A stretch of 64,000 nucleotides of DNA from Pomacea canaliculata (taxonomy: Eukaryota > Mollusca > Gastropoda > Architaenioglossa > Ampullariidae). The stretch is from contig NC_037590.1 of NCBI RefSeq assembly GCF_003073045.1, forward strand, positions 17,576,778-17,640,777, given 5' to 3'. The notes under the pieces were generated by a model. That model was not told where the DNA came from, did no database searches, and saw only the letters and a program-made list of their open reading frames with translations. Below are positions 2,048 through 56,500 of the stretch, piece by piece. A program made the position numbers and the translations under genes. The first letter of the stretch is position 1; each line of letters begins with the position of its first letter.

Positions 2048-4659
2048 TGCGTCCGCTCATATTTGTTATAATTTAATCTAATTTATTTAGTCATCTTCCT
2101 TTTACAAAATGCCGACGTTGCCACACAACACCGAACTTGGCTTTTTTAGAACAAAATAGTTTATTAGTCCACGTTTATTACCTGCACATCTTCATGTAGC
2201 ATAGCTAGTGACATTTAAGACCAATGCTATCCCACCTTTATAATCTAGATATTGCCAGACAACATTTGTTCTGACAATGACAGCGAGCTCAGTAGTCCAC
2301 CTTGCAGCCTGCACAGTGTCCTGCAGCATTGGCACTGACATTTATGTACAAAGGATTTGACCACATGAACTTCCACACTGTCACAGCACTGGCACCGACA
2401 TTCAAAAAGGTCTGATATTGGGCCATGTCCTTCACAGGATCGACTGGACTGGCTGATCGTTGGCCTTTCTCTACCCACTCTCACTGCCCTTCCATTGCAG
2501 CCACCAAATCCAAAGCTTAAAGGACCCCCCTAGAGGCTCGGCTATTGAATGCGTGGCTGCAAGCAATATCTTTAAGTGAGTCTCTTCGTCGCCAAACCCA
2601 GCCTGCACGACTTTTGTTGAGTAATGAATACACTGGCGCATTGTGGTGGCTGGCAGCGCAATATTTACTGCATGTCACGACTGTTGTTCATCGATAGAAA
2701 AACCTTTGCTTAACCCTTTACTTTTGCGCTGCGGCAATGACATTTGTCTTCCACTACCATTTCAAAAGCAAACGAAAAAGAGGGTGACCAAAAAAAATCA
2801 ACAAAAGAATGAAGAGTGCGGTGGTAAGATGGTGGTGTAGGTCTTCAGGATTCAAAATGTTCAAACTCTCTCCTTCCCACGTCTGTTCTTTCTCTCCTTT
2901 TCCTTCTCGCTCTTTCTCATAAAGCATGTCTACGAAAGATTGCTCTGGAGCTGAATGAATAGCTGACAAGAGTTGCAGGACACTACTGGCACTCTTACCC
3001 AATATTTCGGAGGACAGTAAAACATACACCAATATTCAAACGACAGTAAATCCCAGCAACCACTGCGCATTGAGCATGGGTACACCACACTTCCATCTCT
3101 CATAACCATCGCGGCATTGAACGAAGAAGCATCATCAAGACAAGCTTGCAGGCAACATGGGGGTCAGTCAACCTTGCGACCAACATTAATAACACGAGTA
3201 CATACATTTATATCGTGTCAAGGCTCCACGCCTTCCAACCAACCGCTCGGCGCGATGGTTGGGTGAGCACACGTTTCGCAAGCAATTACTTCTGTTAACG
3301 CGGGGAGACCAATGGAGCAATTGCCTTGCATCGTCTGACCGTAAAGACTCAATACGGATGTGTTCATCCGGAAGTGATGACAGATTCTGTAATAATCGAA
3401 TAATGAAAATGAAAATTTTCTTATCGGTACGCGTGGGGCGGTGTCAACTGACGCGAACTTGCTGAACGACTGCGAAATGGTTAAAGAAGCAGGAATAAAT
3501 TAATAACTAAACGACAAGGAACGGAGAGAAATGTGTATAGAAAAAAATAAGAGACAGGAGAATAGAGAAGGGAAGAAAGAAACAAGCAAACATGAAAAGA
3601 ACAAATATATCTGTTACTCAAATGAAAATTACTAAATCAACGGATTATAAATATGTCTTTTTTTCTTTCCTTCTGTTTGTGGGTGTTGCGGGTGAGATAG
3701 GCAGACAATGAGAGAGTGAGTTGAATATTGTAGTCTGAAGATCTTACACCTTTGTGTGTAGATTCATAAGTACAGGTGAGAGGATTGTTTTGTGTGTTGT
3801 GTCACCACCACCCTACAACAAACTGATTTGTCGCCGAGTGCGGTGCAGACCCCAGGTCCTCGTGTCCGCTCGATACCGCTTGCTTGAGAGTTCCCCCCTG
3901 TGATTGATTCTTCGTGTTTCCAATCTCCAAAGATTTGGTGTCCCGGTGCCGGCCGATGAAATGCGAAAACTCTGAAAGTCACTTCGATTTTAGGGATCGG
4001 GACGCCGGCTGCCCTCCCTTGCAGAAGCCCGCCGCCATCCTCCCCCATCTAGTTTTTGTTTAAATACCTGCTACCTGGGCTACAGTGCTGATTCTTCAAA
4101 GTCTTGTTTAATGTATTTAACGAACTGTCACAGAATGAATGCGCTTGCTTTTTGTTGCAAAGACATCTGCCATGTAAACAGGGAAAAAAATTGTGACCAA
4201 CACGAGATTTGAACCAAGGAACATCCCGACCCTTTGCTGCACTTGCTGGATGGTTCTCATACGTTGAGCCTCCCTAAGTCAGCGAGTGACTTTGTTGGGG
4301 TAAGTGTAGCTCGAGATCGAGGTTTGCTTTTTTTTCATGCACAATATTGAGCGTGCAGGGCATTGCAGTCAGAGTTGCTTCCCTCTCCTACTTGATCACA
4401 ATTCACACCGATCTCTCCTCTCGTCTGGCGGCTGGAAGTCGGCCCAGATATCCTGGGCAAGATTGTGCGTGTGATACAGACTTGCTGTTCGCCATCAATC
4501 ACTGGGAGGACGGCGTGCCACCATCAGCATCCACGCAGTGGTGCAGCTGTACATCCTCCCTAAACTTTGCAGGATCACACACACACACACACCTGTGAAG
4601 CTGGGTGAAGGTTCTGTGTTTGTATTATCCTGTTATATTGATGAGGTTCTTCATTTCGG

Positions 4660-4979
4660 TTAGGTTGGTTTATTTTGGTTTGGTTTGTTTGGTTTGGTTT
4701 TGGTTTTGGTTTTGGTTTGGTTTGGTTCTGGTTCTGGTTCTGGTTCTGGTTTTTTGCTTTTGGTTTTGGTTTGGTTTTGGTTTCGTTTCGTTTGGTCTTG
4801 GTCTTGGTTTTGGTTTTGGTTTGGCTTTGGTTTTGATTTGGTTTGGTTTGGTTTGGTTTTGGTTTGGTTTTGGTTCTGGTTCTGGTTTGGTTTGGTTTTG
4901 GTTTGGGGTTTGGTTTGGGTTGGGTTGGTTTGGTTTAGTTTAGTTTGGTTTGGTTTGGTTTGGTTTGGTTTGGTTTGGC
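4660..4979 (+). repeat. TTTGG/TTTTGG satellite block
   Basis: A 320-base block of interspersed TTTGG, TTTTGG and TTCTGG units. It is strongly strand-asymmetric (G+T on the + strand) and gives long spurious open frames on both strands (Phe/Trp/Gly/Leu-rich on +, Lys/Gln/Thr/Pro-rich on -). Confidence 0.92.
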
Positions 4980-6344
4980 TTGCCCAGTGCTTACCGCACT
5001 CGTGTCTACACCAAATCCATTTCCCTTCGTGGATTCGTAGACTCTTCCACTTACTAGTTTTCAGGATATTCACCAGACACTTCACAGACGCACGGTGATA
5101 CAATCTCTACTTTATTTCCTCGCCTGCCGTACATCATATCTGTTATGTAATAACCTATTACCTGCGAAATGATGGCATAGATTCAGTCTTCACAAGCCAA
5201 CAGACAGGTGGAATATCTTACGCAGTAGTTAGACCAATTTTTTTATTTCAAAAGCTGTGTTAGGTGGAGACTTCCTCCCTCCTCGTGAAGACCTTGGCTG
5301 CGTGTTTTACGAGCTTTGATTATTCCGTTAAAGACAACAACAAACACGCAGCAGCCAAAATGAAAAGACGTTTCTCGCGTTATTGCGCTGGGAGCAACAG
5401 CTGAGAAAAGTGTGTCTAGCCCCCGCCATTTTTATCGCCTGCTGCAAGCAAAATGATTGGCTGCAGGAAACAGCAACGACAATGGCCGGTCGCCGTGGTG
5501 CCGACTCTGGGTGTGATTTTTTTTCAGTCACGCTGCTGACGATCGCTTTAACAGACGAGTACAGGTGTACTGCGGGGTGGCATTGGACGCTTCGAGTAGT
5601 TCCTCCCTTCCCACCACCCCATCCACCCTTATTTTATCTACCCGAGCTTATGTCTTCCGTGTCGTGTCATGTCCCATTTGCTGTCTTCAGACTTCTCGGT
5701 TTTCTGCATTTAACTCGCGAACAACAGGCGAGGCAATGCGAGCTCTGGCTCTCGACGGGGAGGACGGATAAGACAACATGATGAAAAGGTTTGCGAGGGA
5801 ACACTTGTTGGTGTTCTGCACAGCTCCTCGTGTGGAGCCCTATTGTCGGCAAGCTGATGTGCATAATGAAGTTTTAATCTGGGCCTTTTCACAAAACTCT
5901 GAATTACCAATAACTGCACCATCTGTAAGATCTGCTATGCAAATGTCATGGTCAATGCAAATCCTTGGAAACAAAAGTAGCCTACTGTTCAGAACAACAA
6001 TCCCTCACAAACTCGGCTTCAATCTTCAGGAAAGAGAATTTTTATCCTCCTCATCTCCTCCTCCTTCTCTGCCTCCGCCTCTGTGTTTCACTTTAATCAA
6101 TTTTCTGTAATTACTGTTATTACAGTTTACATAGAGATCCTCATAACAACACCCCTTGTCTTCTACTTCACATCGCCTTTCTCCTCCTTTTCAAATCATT
6201 CCTTGTCCGTTTTCCCTTCCCTTCTTTCCTCTTTTCACATTCTTATTTCCTCTTCTTTTTCCATCATCAGTTTCAGCATCATCAACATCACCACTCCATC
6301 TTCATTCATCATCATCATCATCATCATCGTCCTCATCATCATCA

Positions 6345-9300: not shown

Positions 9301-12300
9301 TTTTATTTCCTGCCGACGTGTGATATGTTATTTATCATCACCTTTACTGTATTTGTAAGTATTTCTATCTAAGATGTATTTATGCTGTTTGTAGGTTTCT
9401 CGTAGAGTATCATGTACCTCTTTCATCTTTTCGTCAGCTGTAGCACAAAATTCTGTCTTCATTGCAGAAGTGGACTGACATTCACATGCAGTGGGACCCT
9501 AAAGACTGGGGCGATGTTGATACCATCAGACTGCCATCTAAAAAACTCTGGGTCCCAGATTTAAAGTTGTACAACTAGTAAGTACTTTTATTTAAGGGGT
9601 GATTGCTGTTCAGTCTGTCAAAGTCTTTTTTGATGGTTGCATTCTGTCTGATGATCATCGTCACCTCGATGCAACAGGATCCACTCTCTTTATCTATCCT
9701 TTACCCATCTTTTCAAAACAAAAGTTAATTTTCTATTTTTAAGATCCTTACCTTTGTATTTCTCTACCAGGTAACACTGTCTAAGTAATTGGGTGACTGG
9801 TGTATCTTTATATAAACAGAATTATCCTCGATGTTTAGAATGGATGTTACTACCACCTGTTATTTTTTAATCAGTCTTTGCTTCCGTTCTTCATTCTCTG
9901 CCAAATAAAAAGTGTTTTTAATTCATTCTTGCAACGAAAACTTTAATTAGCGTCTGCCCATTTTCACTGCCTATTACTTTGATGATTTCCCTTTGCCGTT
10001 TAACCCTTCCAGTGCTGACAGCCGACTGCAAGAACATCGGGACGCCCTGTTGGTCATCATGTACAACGGGGAGATCCTGTGGATGCCTCAAGCCATCTAC
10101 AGAAGCTCTTGCGTGCTGGACGTGTCCACCTTCCCCTTCGACAAGCAGCAGTGCGAGCTCAAGTTCGGGTCGTGGACCTACGATGGCAACAAGCTGGACC
10201 TTGCTGTTCTGGCCGACAACGAGGTCGCCGGGGACCAGATCGACCTCTCCGAGTATGTCAAGAGCAACTCGTGGCAGATCATGGCGGCGCCCGCTCGTAG
10301 AAATATTCAGTACTACACCTGCTGCCCGGAGCCGTACGTTGACCTCAAGTTCACGCTCATCTTCCAGCGCCGATCCACCTTGTACAACTACATCCTCATC
10401 CTGCCTTGCATCCTGCTCACCTCCATCACCCTCGTTCTCTTTTGGATTCCGCCTGAGTCCCCGGCCAAGCTGATGCTGGGTAAGTAGGTTTTTGAATGAA
10501 GATGGCTTGGATTTCCGCAAAACTGGGGTGACACTCTCTCCCCTCCCCCCAGAAACACCAGTTTTGTTTATATACAGCGTGTGTTGCGCGCAGAGTGTTT
10601 ACACATTTGAACACCATGTTGTTCCGGTGCTTGTTTGTCTGCAGTGTTAAATGTTTATATGATTCATTGGTGTCTTGGGAAGGATTCTCTCGGCTGCATA
10701 GTTAGTTTCTGAACTCTCCCGCCTCCACTTAACGAATGAAGGATAAGGATAGTCTGAAAGACAAAGGTCTGTTAACTTATTCAGTTGGTCAAAGCTGAGT
10801 TGATAATTATTCCAAATACAAAGTACGATTGGTGTAGTGTTAGGATTTTTATTTTTATAAAAAAAGAGGAAAGACATTCGTCATGGACAATCGGTGGATG
10901 AAGAGAGAATCGCTGGCAAAGCTCCCGTTACAAGCGGCTCTAAGATGTGACATTTATTTCCGGTTTTCTCCAGACGCCATTTCTCATCGGTCTGTTGGCT
11001 GCTTATTAGTTCCAGCTCATCGCTTCGTCTGTCTTATCAGTAGAGAAAAGCAAACGTCAGTCTCAGACAAAACAAAACAAAACATCATTACTCTGAGCAA
11101 AAGAAAAAAATTCTGAAAGGTATGGAGTCTTTGACACTAGAGAAACTTTCAATCTGACAATCTGTGGTGCTATATGAGAAGTTGCTATGTTGGCAGAGAA
11201 AGTGTTGTTACATTATTTCACAGCCTTGCCAGTCACGTGGTACCGCGAAAGCTTCTTCACACTTTGGTTTTTCTCTCAGACATTTTTCAAATTAAACTTC
11301 TTCAAGGTATAAGGGAGGCAAGAAGCACTGCTGATTATGAAAGAAGCCCACTGTATCTAGTGTGACCATAGAAACATCAACATGTCAAGATGTGCTTAGG
11401 GACTAGTTTGGGGGTGGATGGGTTCGATGTTAATGTTTCTGAAAATAAATACTATTGGCCATTAAGTCGTTAAAGATTAGCATTCTAGTAGTTTTGTGTT
11501 TCTCTGGTGTTGACTTTATTTGGATGAAACCATTTCTACAGAAAGTGAATTTACTTCTTTCGTCTAGTTTCAATTACTCACTTCAAAATGTCACCTTCTA
11601 CTGTCTGCTTCTCTTTTTTTTCAAATGTATCGGCTGTCATGCATTCTTCCCAGTCAGAAAAAAATCCAGTATATTAAAACCTTAATTTACCCATGTTTTA
11701 TTTATTTTTTGCCTAAAGAGAGAAATTAATTCTTTTACAGCCGATTTCACCTTCGTTTTCTTTCACTTAATATCCCTCTATCTTCTTTTCTATTTTCGTT
11801 CTTCTCTCAGTCCGAATCTTAGGAGAATTGAAGCATTACTGGATCTTATTGGAATAGGAGAAACTGCTTGAACTGTGAAACAGAAGCTTCCCTTTAGGAT
11901 GGTCGAAATTAGATTCTTGCCAATCATTATCGCAGTACGGCAAAACATAAAGAAAAAAGTCTGAAACATTAGGAACAAAATTGGTGTGAAGTGAACCCCT
12001 ACTCCCCTCCCCGACCCCTTTGATTATTGAGTTGGGTGTACTTCTTGACCTCGTCCGACTGCTCCATTCTGTCACTTTGAAACTCATAAAATAAGCATTT
12101 ATAAAACTGTTATTTTAAGGCTATACTTATAGATATATTTTTCCTAAAGTATGGCTGTAAAATTCGTATTTCAAAGCTCTACCACAAGCTGTTTGGCCAG
12201 AAACCTTTGCGTCTATTCAGAAAATACAGACTCACCCCGTTTACTCTCCACCCGTCATCCTTGCCATACTCCTTTCTCAGGCAGAACGAATTCCCTCAAA

Positions 12301-42288: not shown

Positions 42289-45200
42289 TCAGGGAACAGG
42301 TACAAGATTATCCTTGGCCCATTTTTTCATGGTGCGGATAATGTATTCCACCTGTGGACTACTTGTGTTCCGAAGCATGTTGATTACATCTCGCAGTGTC
42401 TCCCTAAACAGAGTAAAATTTAACACATTACTTCCTTTCTGTGATTTACACTTATACATTAATATATGAGATGAGAATAGAACAAAGGTGATTACATGTA
42501 TTTAAAAATCTTAATTATAAGACATCCAAGTATAATCAGTTATACTGATCTTGATGAGTTTGTAATGGCCTTTCATTTAAATCAATGAGTAATCTCAGGA
42601 AAAATATCCAATAAATCTGTGAAATTTTAAGTACATTGGTCACAGGCACACACACATTCACTTTTCAACACATTTAATGATGGCAAAGAACCATTAAGAA
42701 AAACATATATGAGATGGAGTCTGTTGCAAGAATTCTTCAAAAGCTATGTAAAAATATCATGCAAAAGAATAAACTGCTGAAAAGTATCATGGTGCTGATA
42801 TCTTTGCAAGCCCAGCACAGTGATCACAAAAAAGCTCTGCAACATTGCTGGTGCAGAGTGAGGGCAGAACAGACAACCTCTTTGGTTTTACCAGCAAGGT
42901 ATGTCAGGAGATCACATTCCACTTATTATTCCTCAAAAATGCACAGTGTCATAGAACAAAGCAAAAATCAACTGTTTTTCAACCTTTCAAGTGCCCATGC
43001 AGTGATTATGAAAGCAATATTACTGCACAGTCTCTGTACATTTCTTTGAAGGTTTAGTCCATTTCTAAGAAATGAAACTTCTTGTTTTACTTTCACACAA
43101 TTCATTTACTTGCTCAGCAATAATTAATCTTGATCCAAATGTTTCTGCCACCTTATTTTACCTTCATATATTCATCTACTTTCTTAGCAATGATTAATCT
43201 TGATATAAATGTTTCTGCCTACACCACCCTCTCAGGCTTCCTTTAAAATCACTTGAAAAATGAGATAAAGAGATGTAAACAGTAAGCACATCAAAGAGTA
43301 AGGAAGAAAAAAACCAGAGAATTTATTCCACAAATGTTGTGATTTTGGTTAACAGCAAGTTTACAAATAAATGTGCTTACCTTAGCATACATTAACAAAA
43401 ACACAACACCAAAAGAAACTACAGGGAAAAGTGCAAAATTATAAATCCATGACAAGTCTGCAGACATGACAGCGATTTATATGCTTGCCAATATAAGCAT
43501 GCACTCCTGTAAAAGGACCTGCTGGTTACACAAAAGTATGCGTCAAGTGCTGATTTTTCCAGACGACAAAGAACAGTACAGCAGCAGATCTGAAGAAGAC
43601 CTTACTGTTTGGAAGATGCCCTTTCATAATTGAACTTTGTTGTCACGGCCCCATTTTAAGAGTTCGAACAATGTACTCGACTTGTGGGTTGCTAGTGTTA
43701 CGAAGCAGATGAAGGATCTCTTTGAGTTGGTCCCTTTGTAGGATAAGGAAAAACAGAAAACACACCTATTCCATTCTTTCAAAGATTCCAGAAATATTTG
43801 TAAATAAAATAACAATACAATGGCTGTGTTTAGTACCGGTTTAGGGCAACAGTTAAATGTAAATCGAAAGAAAAGCTGGAAAATAACAGACATCAGTCAC
43901 TAACTTAACTACTAGTACATTTTACAACAAACAGTTTTTAAACTTAAACAGCATTATTTAATAAATAAAGTAGTAATGGATCTTGCTCATGTACATGCAC
44001 AAATGCACGTGCATACCCGTGCATGTGTGGACAAACACACACACACAAAAGCAGGGGTACATGGTGGCCACAGGCTGGGATTTGGCAATAATTGAACATC
44101 CTTAATATTATTTCTGTTAGATTCCAGTGAGTTGTCGCTATGCATCTATTTCCAATGAATTTAAACAGAATTTATGAACATATGCCTGCATGCATATGGT
44201 GATAGGGAAGGAAATAATAGATGGGGAAGAGACAAAAAGAACTAAATGCTGGAACGTGGAAATCAGTCATAAAATTTATCATCTAACATAACCAACACAA
44301 AATCTGCTCCTTGCAGCATCTATGATGCTAAACCATGAAAAAAAAGTAAAACTAAAGCTCCAAAACCAAACTATGGATATTGTTGGGGACTGTATTGATT
44401 ACAAAGTGGTTGCATCTATTTTCATTATCTACACCAGAACAGTTTTTCAAATCATCTAATATTATTCACTCATGTAGAACATACAATGAGATCTCAGAAT
44501 AACTTTCAACTTGTACAACCAAAGTAATCCTTGTAAACTATTGCAAATGATCATCGGCAGTATTTGGGTCAACGGATGAGGAGTGGGCAGAACCGTACTC
44601 CTCATTATGCAAGATATTTCTTAAAGAGACAGATTTTGAGGCTGGATTCAAATGTAGACAGTTTGAAAAGAAAGGGGAACAAAATTCCAAACAGTGAGCC
44701 CTGAAAAGGTAAAGGATAGTCTGCCAAATTTCTCTTATCTGATGCATGGCACCTAGAGAAGGGCAACACAAGCAGACCTAGGAGACCAACTGATGGTAAG
44801 GCATCAGTAGCTAAGACAGGTACGACAAAAAAAGAGACACTGGATGTTGCTCGAAGTAATGTCTTTCTCTCATACCTTACAATAAGAACTTTATACCTCA
44901 CAACCATCTTTCTTTTACTATCATTTGATTCTAGTGTTAGTTATGGTTTATTTCATTATTGATGATGTTAGCACTGAGAGCAATCCTTTGGCTTAAAAAA
45001 AACACAGTAGAATTATTATAACTGTATAATACTCTAATAGTTATAATTATTATATTATTTTTAAAAACACCCACGCATGAGGGGAAACAAAATTCACAAT
45101 AGAAAATTTTGGAACATTTTCAAAGATAGGGTGACAAAAACATAACGTATCTAAATTTCAGTAAACTGTGATGAAAATGTGAGTGTCACAGGTTTCAAAC

Positions 45201-53507: not shown

Positions 53508-53561
53508 CAGAACCAAGATTTGTGCACAGAAGGATTAAATGTGGAGAAAGTTGAAAATAAA

Positions 53562-56500
53562 ATGTCTTATGGAAGTATAATGAAACGTTTGCAAAGACTA
53601 GAATTTCCAGACTGCACCAGAGAAGCTCTAGAGTTTATCACGGAAACATTTTCCTCACAAGAAGGAGCAGCAATACCAGGTCTTGGGGGAGATAAAGAAC
53701 CAATTTTAGCAGAAGTATGCCAGGCCTTTGTCCTGTTTGGATCTAAACGAAGCACAAAGGTGAAATTTGTTAAAATAAATTTTAAGATTATTAATTTGTA
53801 AAAGCGAGGCTGTGGTTGTGCAACTAGAAAGGGAATGACTTTGATAAGGAGGAAGGTGGGCTTTCTGTCATGGATGTGGTTAAGCAGGCAGTGGATTTAG
53901 GGAGATCATGCGACAGTGTTGTCTGCCTTGTCATCACCACCTTAACCCTAAACCTTTGGTCCTTCATTTTAATAGCACCACTGTTACTACTGCAGATGTT
54001 GGCTGAGGTGTGTAACAAGCCAGGCTGCAAAGTACCTCTACCCTCTTATATTGAGGTTGATCCCCATGAAGTACTCCATGGGCAGCTGAAAAAGACGTAA
54101 TTCCATGGAATATCAACTAATGAGTGCTTTGGAATTGTGTAGATTCATGTGCTTCCTTTACTGCTTAAGAATAACCCTTAATTTCGCTTTCTAAAACTTA
54201 CAGATAATATGTATTATTCTTGATGCCAAAAGTTTCACTTGTATTACTCATGTTTTGTTGGCACCATTGCAAATTTCAGGAATGCTTTTGGAATCATTTG
54301 TTTAGTTATTGTCCAATCTTGCAGCGTTTGCTATAACATGCCAACATATCAATTTTAAGATTTTTGTCCTCACAGAAACTAAGTGCTCTCCAAGAGCTTC
54401 AGCTACTGCAGCTCCTGTGTGAACATTTCAGGACAGCTTTGGAAAAGACCAAGTATCAGATCTTCAACTTAATGTTTGGTGCTAGAGGTGATGAACAAGC
54501 CAACACACTGCTTACCAAATTGGTTTCTATGGCACTCTCAGTCAGCTGTACATCAGTACTGGACTGTGCAGCAATCTGGATGCAGGTACCACAATGGCAT
54601 CTTCACCGTGTTGGGTGAAGCATATTGAGAAAATCTTGAGGGAGGGGATGCCTATTACTGACAGACATCTGAATTAACCTTGGAGAAGAAATTGGAGTGA
54701 TGGAATAGAAGCTGATTATGGTGTCATGTGAAAATACTCATGCCAGTCATAGACAGTTCTTAAGTCTATCTTGCCCTCTTCTCTCTCTTGCACACACACA
54801 CACACACAGGTGTATCATATAAGATGACTTATGAACATGGTCTAAATGGAACAATTTCTAGATTCTATGTGCAGTAGAATTTACTGACCGAAAAGAGAAA
54901 CAATATATTTCCTTCCTCCCCTTTTTTAACAACTGATTTGCAATTGCTCAGATTACTCATGATTGCATCAGGTATTAATACATCCACACTTTGTAAATAG
55001 CTAACAAATATTCTAATGCTGAACATTGTGAGCAGTGATAAAATGGGAATATTTTTTATTCATTTTAATGGTACTGCGTTTTTGAAGGGTTTCTTGTATG
55101 AATTTTTCCTTACAGGATCGGAACAGCCATAGTTCAGACTCTCTCCAGTTGACTAAACAGTTGGTTGAAGACTACTGCCTACTTTTTCCAGATCCATCGA
55201 ATATGTTTCAGAAGTTGCCATCCATCTCTCCATTATTTGTCTGTAACTTTACCACATCTGTTACGTCTGTTTTCCCTTTTCATGGTGAGTTTTCTTAATG
55301 CCATCTAACATGTACCCATAGCTTCTACACTTATTGCCTCTTGTTTCATGGCAATTACACATTTAATTTGCATATAAATCTGCTGCAGATGTCGAGTCAA
55401 TCCCACCAGCAAGTTTATTGGAACATGTGACAACATGGATTACTTCAGATTGCACTTTGTGTTGCGAGTCTGTCCGTCAGGTTGCTATTCATGGCACCTG
55501 TTCATCACCTGTACCAGGCCTACTTGGCTGGTGTGTTCTTGGACCCATCATCTGTTCACACCTGATGAAACCAGGTTCTTCAGCAGCTTCAGCTTCCAAC
55601 AAACCCCACAGCCAAATGTATAAACCATCAGTAACAAAAACTATGACAACATTATCAAAATTGCATCTTGGTTTGCTCCAGAGCTTGGACTTCTGTCAGT
55701 CGAGCTCGTTATCACATTGCCTTCTCAGTGTGACAGATGCTATGTGTCTAGTAAAACAGCTTTCAACGCTCTTAGACAGGGTGAGGGAAAGTCAGAGTGA
55801 CTCTGGTGTAAAGGTTGAAGAAGATGAAGTAACTCATATAACTTTGGAGAGGTTGGCACAAGTGCTGCAGGTAGCAAAGATGGCTGGGTGCCTAAGGGCA
55901 CAGCTAGGCAAGTGCTACTTTTCAACTTTGTTTATTGTTGCTTCCAATAAATTAGCAATTCTAATGCACTTATTCTGATAAAAGATTGTACAATGGTATT
56001 TCGGTCTACATCTTTTAAATGTATAAAAATTGGAGTGGGCAAAGTGTGGATATGTGGAAAGTTCAGTTCTCCTTCCTCTTTTTCCTGTGGAAATTTACTC
56101 TGAAGTATTGTTATCAAATGATATCATCAGTTCTATGAGCTCAGAGATGATTAAATTCTTCATCTACAGAGATAGTATGCTAGATCTGTTGCCGAGTCTC
56201 AAATGTATCACCATCATCACTTCTATTACTAGAAGAGTATTACCGATAATGTGGGGTGATCAAAAGCAATCTGATAAGCAATTCTGAAGATGTCCAGAGT
56301 TTAGAGCAATAAAGTTTTTTTTCTTTCTCCTTCAGGTCAGCTTCCAGAACTAGGAAAGGTAGTCAAAAAGCACTTGCCTCACAACAGGTAAATAATAAAC
56401 ACTTGGCTTTATTATTTCATCACTATTATTATTAATAATGGCAACATCTTCTAACGTTCCAGTTTCTTCAACAAGTTCACTTAAGAGTAAATGGTTATTG

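Follow-up and report, generated by a model that had tools for sequence, protein, structure and literature searches.

Tandem last exons in the IFT56 gene of Pomacea canaliculata, one of them probably a former alternative C-terminus

The IFT56 (TTC26/DYF-13) gene of the snail Pomacea canaliculata, which lies complete on the minus strand of a 64-kb window (the whole stretch of DNA analysed, 64,000 nucleotides in length), has two related last exons arranged one after the other. These had been noticed in an earlier, sequence-only reading of the same DNA, and the observation is confirmed here as real. The copy nearer to the shared exons, termed proximal, is likely to be an old alternative last exon that was once kept as protein and is now dying, truncated, polymorphic or misread. 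This explanation rests on the existence of two copies, their common phase, the strong pyrimidine tract of the proximal acceptor and a divergence that fits selection on both proteins. Either IFT56 is made with two different tails, or one tail is being lost.

Exons 1-15 (52043-45278, minus strand) are common to both possible IFT56 transcripts, and form a single open frame through every join, with GT donors and AG acceptors. Their bounds were set by hand, giving the following hand-placed features:

52043-51906, minus strand, IFT56 exon 1
51415-51323, minus strand, IFT56 exon 2
50759-50645, minus strand, IFT56 exon 3
49996-49801, minus strand, IFT56 exon 4
49599-49530, minus strand, IFT56 exon 5
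49202-49101, minus strand, IFT56 exon 6
48671-48597, minus strand, IFT56 exon 7
48205-48103, minus strand, IFT56 exon 8
47952-47843, minus strand, IFT56 exon 9
47050-46987, minus strand, IFT56 exon 10
46780-46692, minus strand, IFT56 exon 11
46420-46337, minus strand, IFT56 exon 12
45992-45923, minus strand, IFT56 exon 13
45681-45575, minus strand, IFT56 exon 14
45411-45278, minus strand, IFT56 exon 15, ending in phase 2

When joined to the distal last exon, these encode an intact IFT56 of 554 aa. The product matches the IFT56 chain 8bd7_E in the PDB, which we take to be from Chlamydomonas, with an E value of 6.2e-224 (query residues 13-551 against 8bd7_E residues 16-553); the remaining 12 PDB matches, none of them stronger than 2e-9, are to other TPR proteins, and the Pfam matches are to TPR families. 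The protein is therefore similar over its full length to a characterised IFT56, and the gene was assigned as its orthologue. Upstream of IFT56, on the opposite strand and head to head with it, lie exons of INTS15 (Integrator subunit 15; 54337-55978, plus strand). Were an open frame at 53508-53801, which has no Pfam match, to be the first exon of INTS15, the starts of the two genes would be ~1.5 kb apart.

The region containing the two last exons comprises the following features:

43643-43733, minus strand, coding part of the proximal last-exon copy as read, a 30-residue peptide followed by a stop, with the acceptor TTTTTCCTTATCCTACAAAG
43657-43654, minus strand, A4 run at which the proximal copy departs from the distal frame
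43645-43643, minus strand, proximal stop codon as read
43653-43624, minus strand, shifted-frame continuation WGRDNKVQL and stop (stop at 43626-43624), homologous to the distal end
42403-42289, minus strand, intact distal last exon, a 38-residue peptide and stop, which together with exon 15 aligns to 8bd7_E residues 474-553
42327-42322, minus strand, distal A6 run
42291-42289, minus strand, distal stop codon

The coordinates, phases and peptides previously given for both exons all held. Exon 15 leaves two bases (AG), to which each acceptor adds a G to make Arg, such that it can join either 43733 or 42403 in the same phase, as had been proposed; equally, at the Lys-Lys position the run is indeed A6 in the distal copy and A4 in the proximal one, and the proximal tail ends in MGP. 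Being homologous, and lying in the same phase and order on the same strand of one gene, the two constitute a tandem-duplicated exon pair. Up to the A run, 26 residues align without gaps, and no other translation from the window, in any of the six frames, comes near the proximal copy as a match to the distal tail (ungapped BLOSUM62 score of 94, the runner-up scoring 31). The two tails had been described as related despite differing at third codon positions, and this is borne out by the 15/26 residues that are the same over these codons and by the 8, 3 and 17 differences at the first, second and third positions, respectively.

Past the run, the three frames of the proximal copy score -8, 27 and -7 against the distal tail (BLOSUM), the score of 27 belonging to the shifted frame. 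Two of the 127,948 nine-residue words in the window reach this value, namely the shifted proximal tail and the distal copy itself. Counted from the Trp, the shifted frame reaches its stop one codon earlier than the distal exon. A proximal run shorter by one base would also bring the shifted frame into register, with one Lys fewer, and the proximal frame is consequently one or two bases from being open. Since tail sequence can still be made out beyond the break, the break appears to be late. An open tail similar in length to that of the distal exon is found only in the shifted frame and, because the frame breaks at A4 as assembled, the pair is classed as a duplicated exon pair resembling former alternative last exons, rather than as a proven working pair. 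Between the last exons, at 43100-43219, are two 50-base direct repeats, 88% alike, with a spacing of 70.

The duplication appears to extend little beyond the exon. Nucleotide identity between the copies is 51/79 in the exon and 11/40 in the intron from 60 to 20 bases upstream, dropping to background outside the exon, and blastn between the flanks gave only the exon itself and short low-grade matches, with no larger duplicated unit. When the window was searched with the 554-aa protein using tblastn, the proximal copy (E 3.8e-7) was the sole strong match outside the protein's own exons, the next being at E 0.27. As no other convincing exon remnant was evident, the visible duplicated unit is the last exon with its acceptor, and not the whole gene. 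The same result argues against the proximal copy being the remnant of a whole-gene tandem duplication in which all other exons have been lost, as does its position in the right order between the exons of an intact gene, and this origin is the least probable of those considered here, to the point of being scarcely credible. A search of the snail's own genome (440,159,624 bases in 24 contigs) with the proximal 19-residue peptide gave one match at E <=0.001, which was the peptide itself; this search was insensitive, having missed the distal copy, and may have overlooked further relatives. Copies of the tail were additionally sought, by means of a three-row alignment, in viral and genome contig collections, both non-animal, where none of the 97 and 5 pattern matches, respectively, was confirmed by tblastn. 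Within intron 15, an open stretch at 44605-44760 (minus strand) resembles, by eye, a motif with which we take the reverse transcriptase proteins of non-LTR retrotransposons to end; at E 0.01, Pfam gave no match for the open frame at 44605-44940.

The manner in which the two copies have diverged suggests that the proximal one was probably long held by protein-level selection. Only 6 of the 15 residues retained before the run are encoded by identical codons, and in the nine codons after the run there are 3, 4 and 7 differences at the three codon positions; over all 35 codons, pS is 0.86, and so saturated, and pN is 0.27. Replacements with a positive BLOSUM62 score make up 10/11 of those before the run, which was matched in 162/20,000 neutral runs, and 2/5 of those after it, which was matched in 8173/20,000, making this measure uninformative past the run.

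Neutral decay was simulated initially with all change placed on one copy, from its birth. Residue differences as few as those observed then arose in 1/10,000 runs over the 35 codons, 21/10,000 before the run and 297/10,000 after it, and third-position differences as many in 0, 2 and 687 of 10,000 runs, respectively. A BLOSUM score as high was attained in 0/20,000 runs before the A run and 4/20,000 after it, or in 0/20,000 and 2/20,000 when decay started from the proximal copy. Simulations of this kind overstate the case, and they were therefore repeated with the change shared between the copies, the partner accepting synonymous or positive-scoring changes only (2000 runs each). With 70%, 50%, 30% and 10% of the change on the dead copy, the observed BLOSUM score was reached before the run in 0, 0, 1 and 13 of the 2000 runs, and after the run, in a nine-codon test that hinges on one retained Trp, in 3, 10, 56 and 282. 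Residue differences, the count of which is a cruder and weaker measure than the BLOSUM score, were this few in 28, 41, 97 and 194 runs before the A run and in 92, 137, 206 and 372 after it. In reading these values, a dead copy is expected to take at least half of the change.

A neutral substitution pattern, which the sequence-only reading had held would speak against selection on both copies, thus rarely yields the similarity seen, arguing that the proximal copy was probably long held as protein and that its frame change is late. The claim that both copies were under protein-level selection for a long time is supported by simulation on this one sequence pair within one genome, including the control with shared change, strongly for the part before the A run and moderately for the part after it. 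A duplicate that had been non-functional and drifting since birth would account for the broken frame, as well as for the low matrix score of the proximal acceptor and its base at -3, both described below, but simulated decay rarely retains such similarity. The proximal exon as an old dead copy is disfavoured, and we consider it highly improbable.

From -20 to -5, the proximal acceptor is 0.88 pyrimidine, a content reached by 0/263 intronic AGs and by 2/14 real acceptors, and the 30 bases upstream are free of AG. Its -3 base is an A, found at 0/14 of the real acceptors here. On a matrix built from the gene's own 14 sites, which separates real from intronic AGs poorly, the proximal acceptor scores -1.8, below the lowest of the 14 real sites when each is left out (-1.2), and 152/288 intronic AGs score as high; the distal acceptor scores 0.7, a value reached by 103/288. 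It is on account of this poor discrimination that pyrimidine content and AG-free distance were also used. Each last exon is followed by a candidate poly(A) signal:

43327-43322, minus strand, AATAAA, candidate poly(A) signal at which a transcript with the proximal exon could end, with a T-rich stretch downstream
42213-42208, minus strand, ATTAAA, candidate poly(A) signal for the distal exon, weak alone

Taken alone, neither is beyond chance; for the AATAAA, itself weak alone, the chance of one such motif in 330 bases is ~0.3 by a hand estimate from base composition. The suggestion that the two are mutually exclusive last exons is hence favoured by the phase and the pyrimidine tract and agrees with the presence of a candidate poly(A) signal, while one measure of the acceptor speaks against it.

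Splicing of the proximal copy as an internal exon is another conceivable use, in which it would act as a poison exon, its early stop causing message decay and so reducing IFT56. Nine GTs between the copies score >4 on a donor matrix made from the gene itself, the best donor-like site being AAG/GTAAAA at 43161, reached by 1/249 intronic GTs, with AAG/GTAAGC at 43380 reached by 7/249. However, the best donors are 263 and 482 bases past the proximal stop, and such a role would leave the protein-level conservation of the proximal copy unexplained; we judge it to be less probable even than drift from birth.

If the proximal copy is indeed an old alternative last exon, its present state is most readily, albeit tentatively, described as that of a recently dying exon. 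Next in likelihood is a truncated isoform ending in MGP, and then an allele or assembly error, the small remainder falling to states other than these three. A functional truncated isoform, with the MGP ending as the working product of the proximal exon, would fit with the strong conservation of the 26 residues before the run, and a stop codon within the last exon normally escapes nonsense-mediated decay. By contrast, the truncation takes away the final part of the last predicted helix. A single-sequence model of the distal tail (mean pLDDT 82.3, pTM 0.41), used solely to place its two helices, predicts these at residues 3-11 and 16-32, and a tail cut off at the proximal stop would lack the final part of the second along with the last residues. 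Furthermore, KWAKxN is common to the distal tail and 8bd7_E, the latter retaining RKWAKNN at the tail position lost from the proximal copy, and the sequence after the stop is still tail-like in the old frame, indicating that the change is late. On this evidence a working truncated product is a minority possibility.

Slightly less likely again is that the A4 run represents an assembly error or a heterozygous allele, in which case most chromosomes would be open-framed and the second tail (about WGRDNKVQL) would be intact and used. The shifted frame runs on through homologous residues to a stop placed almost where the distal one is, and the likely source assembly was generated from PacBio reads corrected with Pilon, from an animal described as highly heterozygous (PMC6129957), making an allele or a residual indel realistic. 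Nevertheless, the intact IFT56 frame spans 1665 bases, contains 20 runs that are at least four bases long, five of them being of five or more and the longest of eight, and is free of any frame break. Moreover, A4 is a short run, and indel errors are uncommon in runs of this length.

The IFT56 pair belongs to a known class, that of tandem-duplicated 3' exons, being an ordinary kind of duplication in an unusual gene. Swaps of human tandem-duplicated exons are reported to be C-terminal in 77/236 instances, and the 3' exons of TPM1, Tm1 and lev-11 to be duplicated in tandem (PMC9741552); for CAPZB, alternative 3' homologous exons are reported to be in use (PMC4465641). As in CAPZB and the tropomyosins TPM1/Tm1/lev-11, where related last exons in the same phase are swapped as C-terminal variants, the two IFT56 exons share a phase and would alter only the C-terminus. 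Unlike these, the gene concerned encodes an IFT-B subunit, one copy is frame-disrupted and the splicing of the pair is only putative. The terms 'IFT' and 'TTC26' are absent from the main text of both PMC9741552 and PMC4465641. Relative to IFT56/TTC26/DYF-13 as known, the gene is the same with a second last exon in addition, and the titles and abstract openings of the IFT56 literature, among the matches listed, contain no report of such an exon. The mouse hop allele of Ttc26 provides a case of C-terminal shortening of the same protein, as in the proximal tail, and is reported to lose the last 125 residues and to impair the interaction with Ift46 (PMC4207615). In hop, however, a nonsense mutation lies in a shared exon, whereas in the snail just one of two possible tails is shorter, by ~ten residues.

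The most probable history would begin with an ancient event in which a second copy of the IFT56 last exon arose in tandem, together with its 3' splice site. The two copies would have served as alternative last exons, probably using separate poly(A) sites, and exon 15 could have been spliced to either, yielding forms of IFT56 that are alike except for the last pair of helices. The proximal copy would thus have been spliced and translated, and exchange of the tails may have tuned the binding of IFT56 on the outer face of IFT-B1. Lastly, the A run would have been altered by one or two bases at a late stage, cutting the proximal tail ~ten residues short, within the last helix.

To our knowledge, IFT56 is generally treated as having a single form. 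If a second, long-conserved tail did exist, the composition of trains would be tunable by splicing between cilium types, and if the change of frame is real, the locus would show the loss of an old isoform as it happens, which is rarely seen. IFT56 is described as a peripheral subunit of IFT-B1, connected there with inner dynein arm cargo by way of an adapter (PMC10191852). More speculatively, some gastropods may make two IFT56 tails from old alternative last exons, one of the two being now polymorphic or in the process of being lost in this snail. We hold this to be doubtful; were it true, the IFT trains of different cilium types would carry differently tailed cargo subunits.

Elsewhere in the window, ARAGORN found no tRNA. 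An exon at 9951-10487 (plus strand) encodes a neurotransmitter-gated ion-channel ligand-binding domain (Pfam PF02931, E 1.7e-34), and 4575-5106 is a long tract of low complexity in which several frames are open on each strand, those of the minus strand being rich in Asn, Gln, Thr, Lys and Pro.
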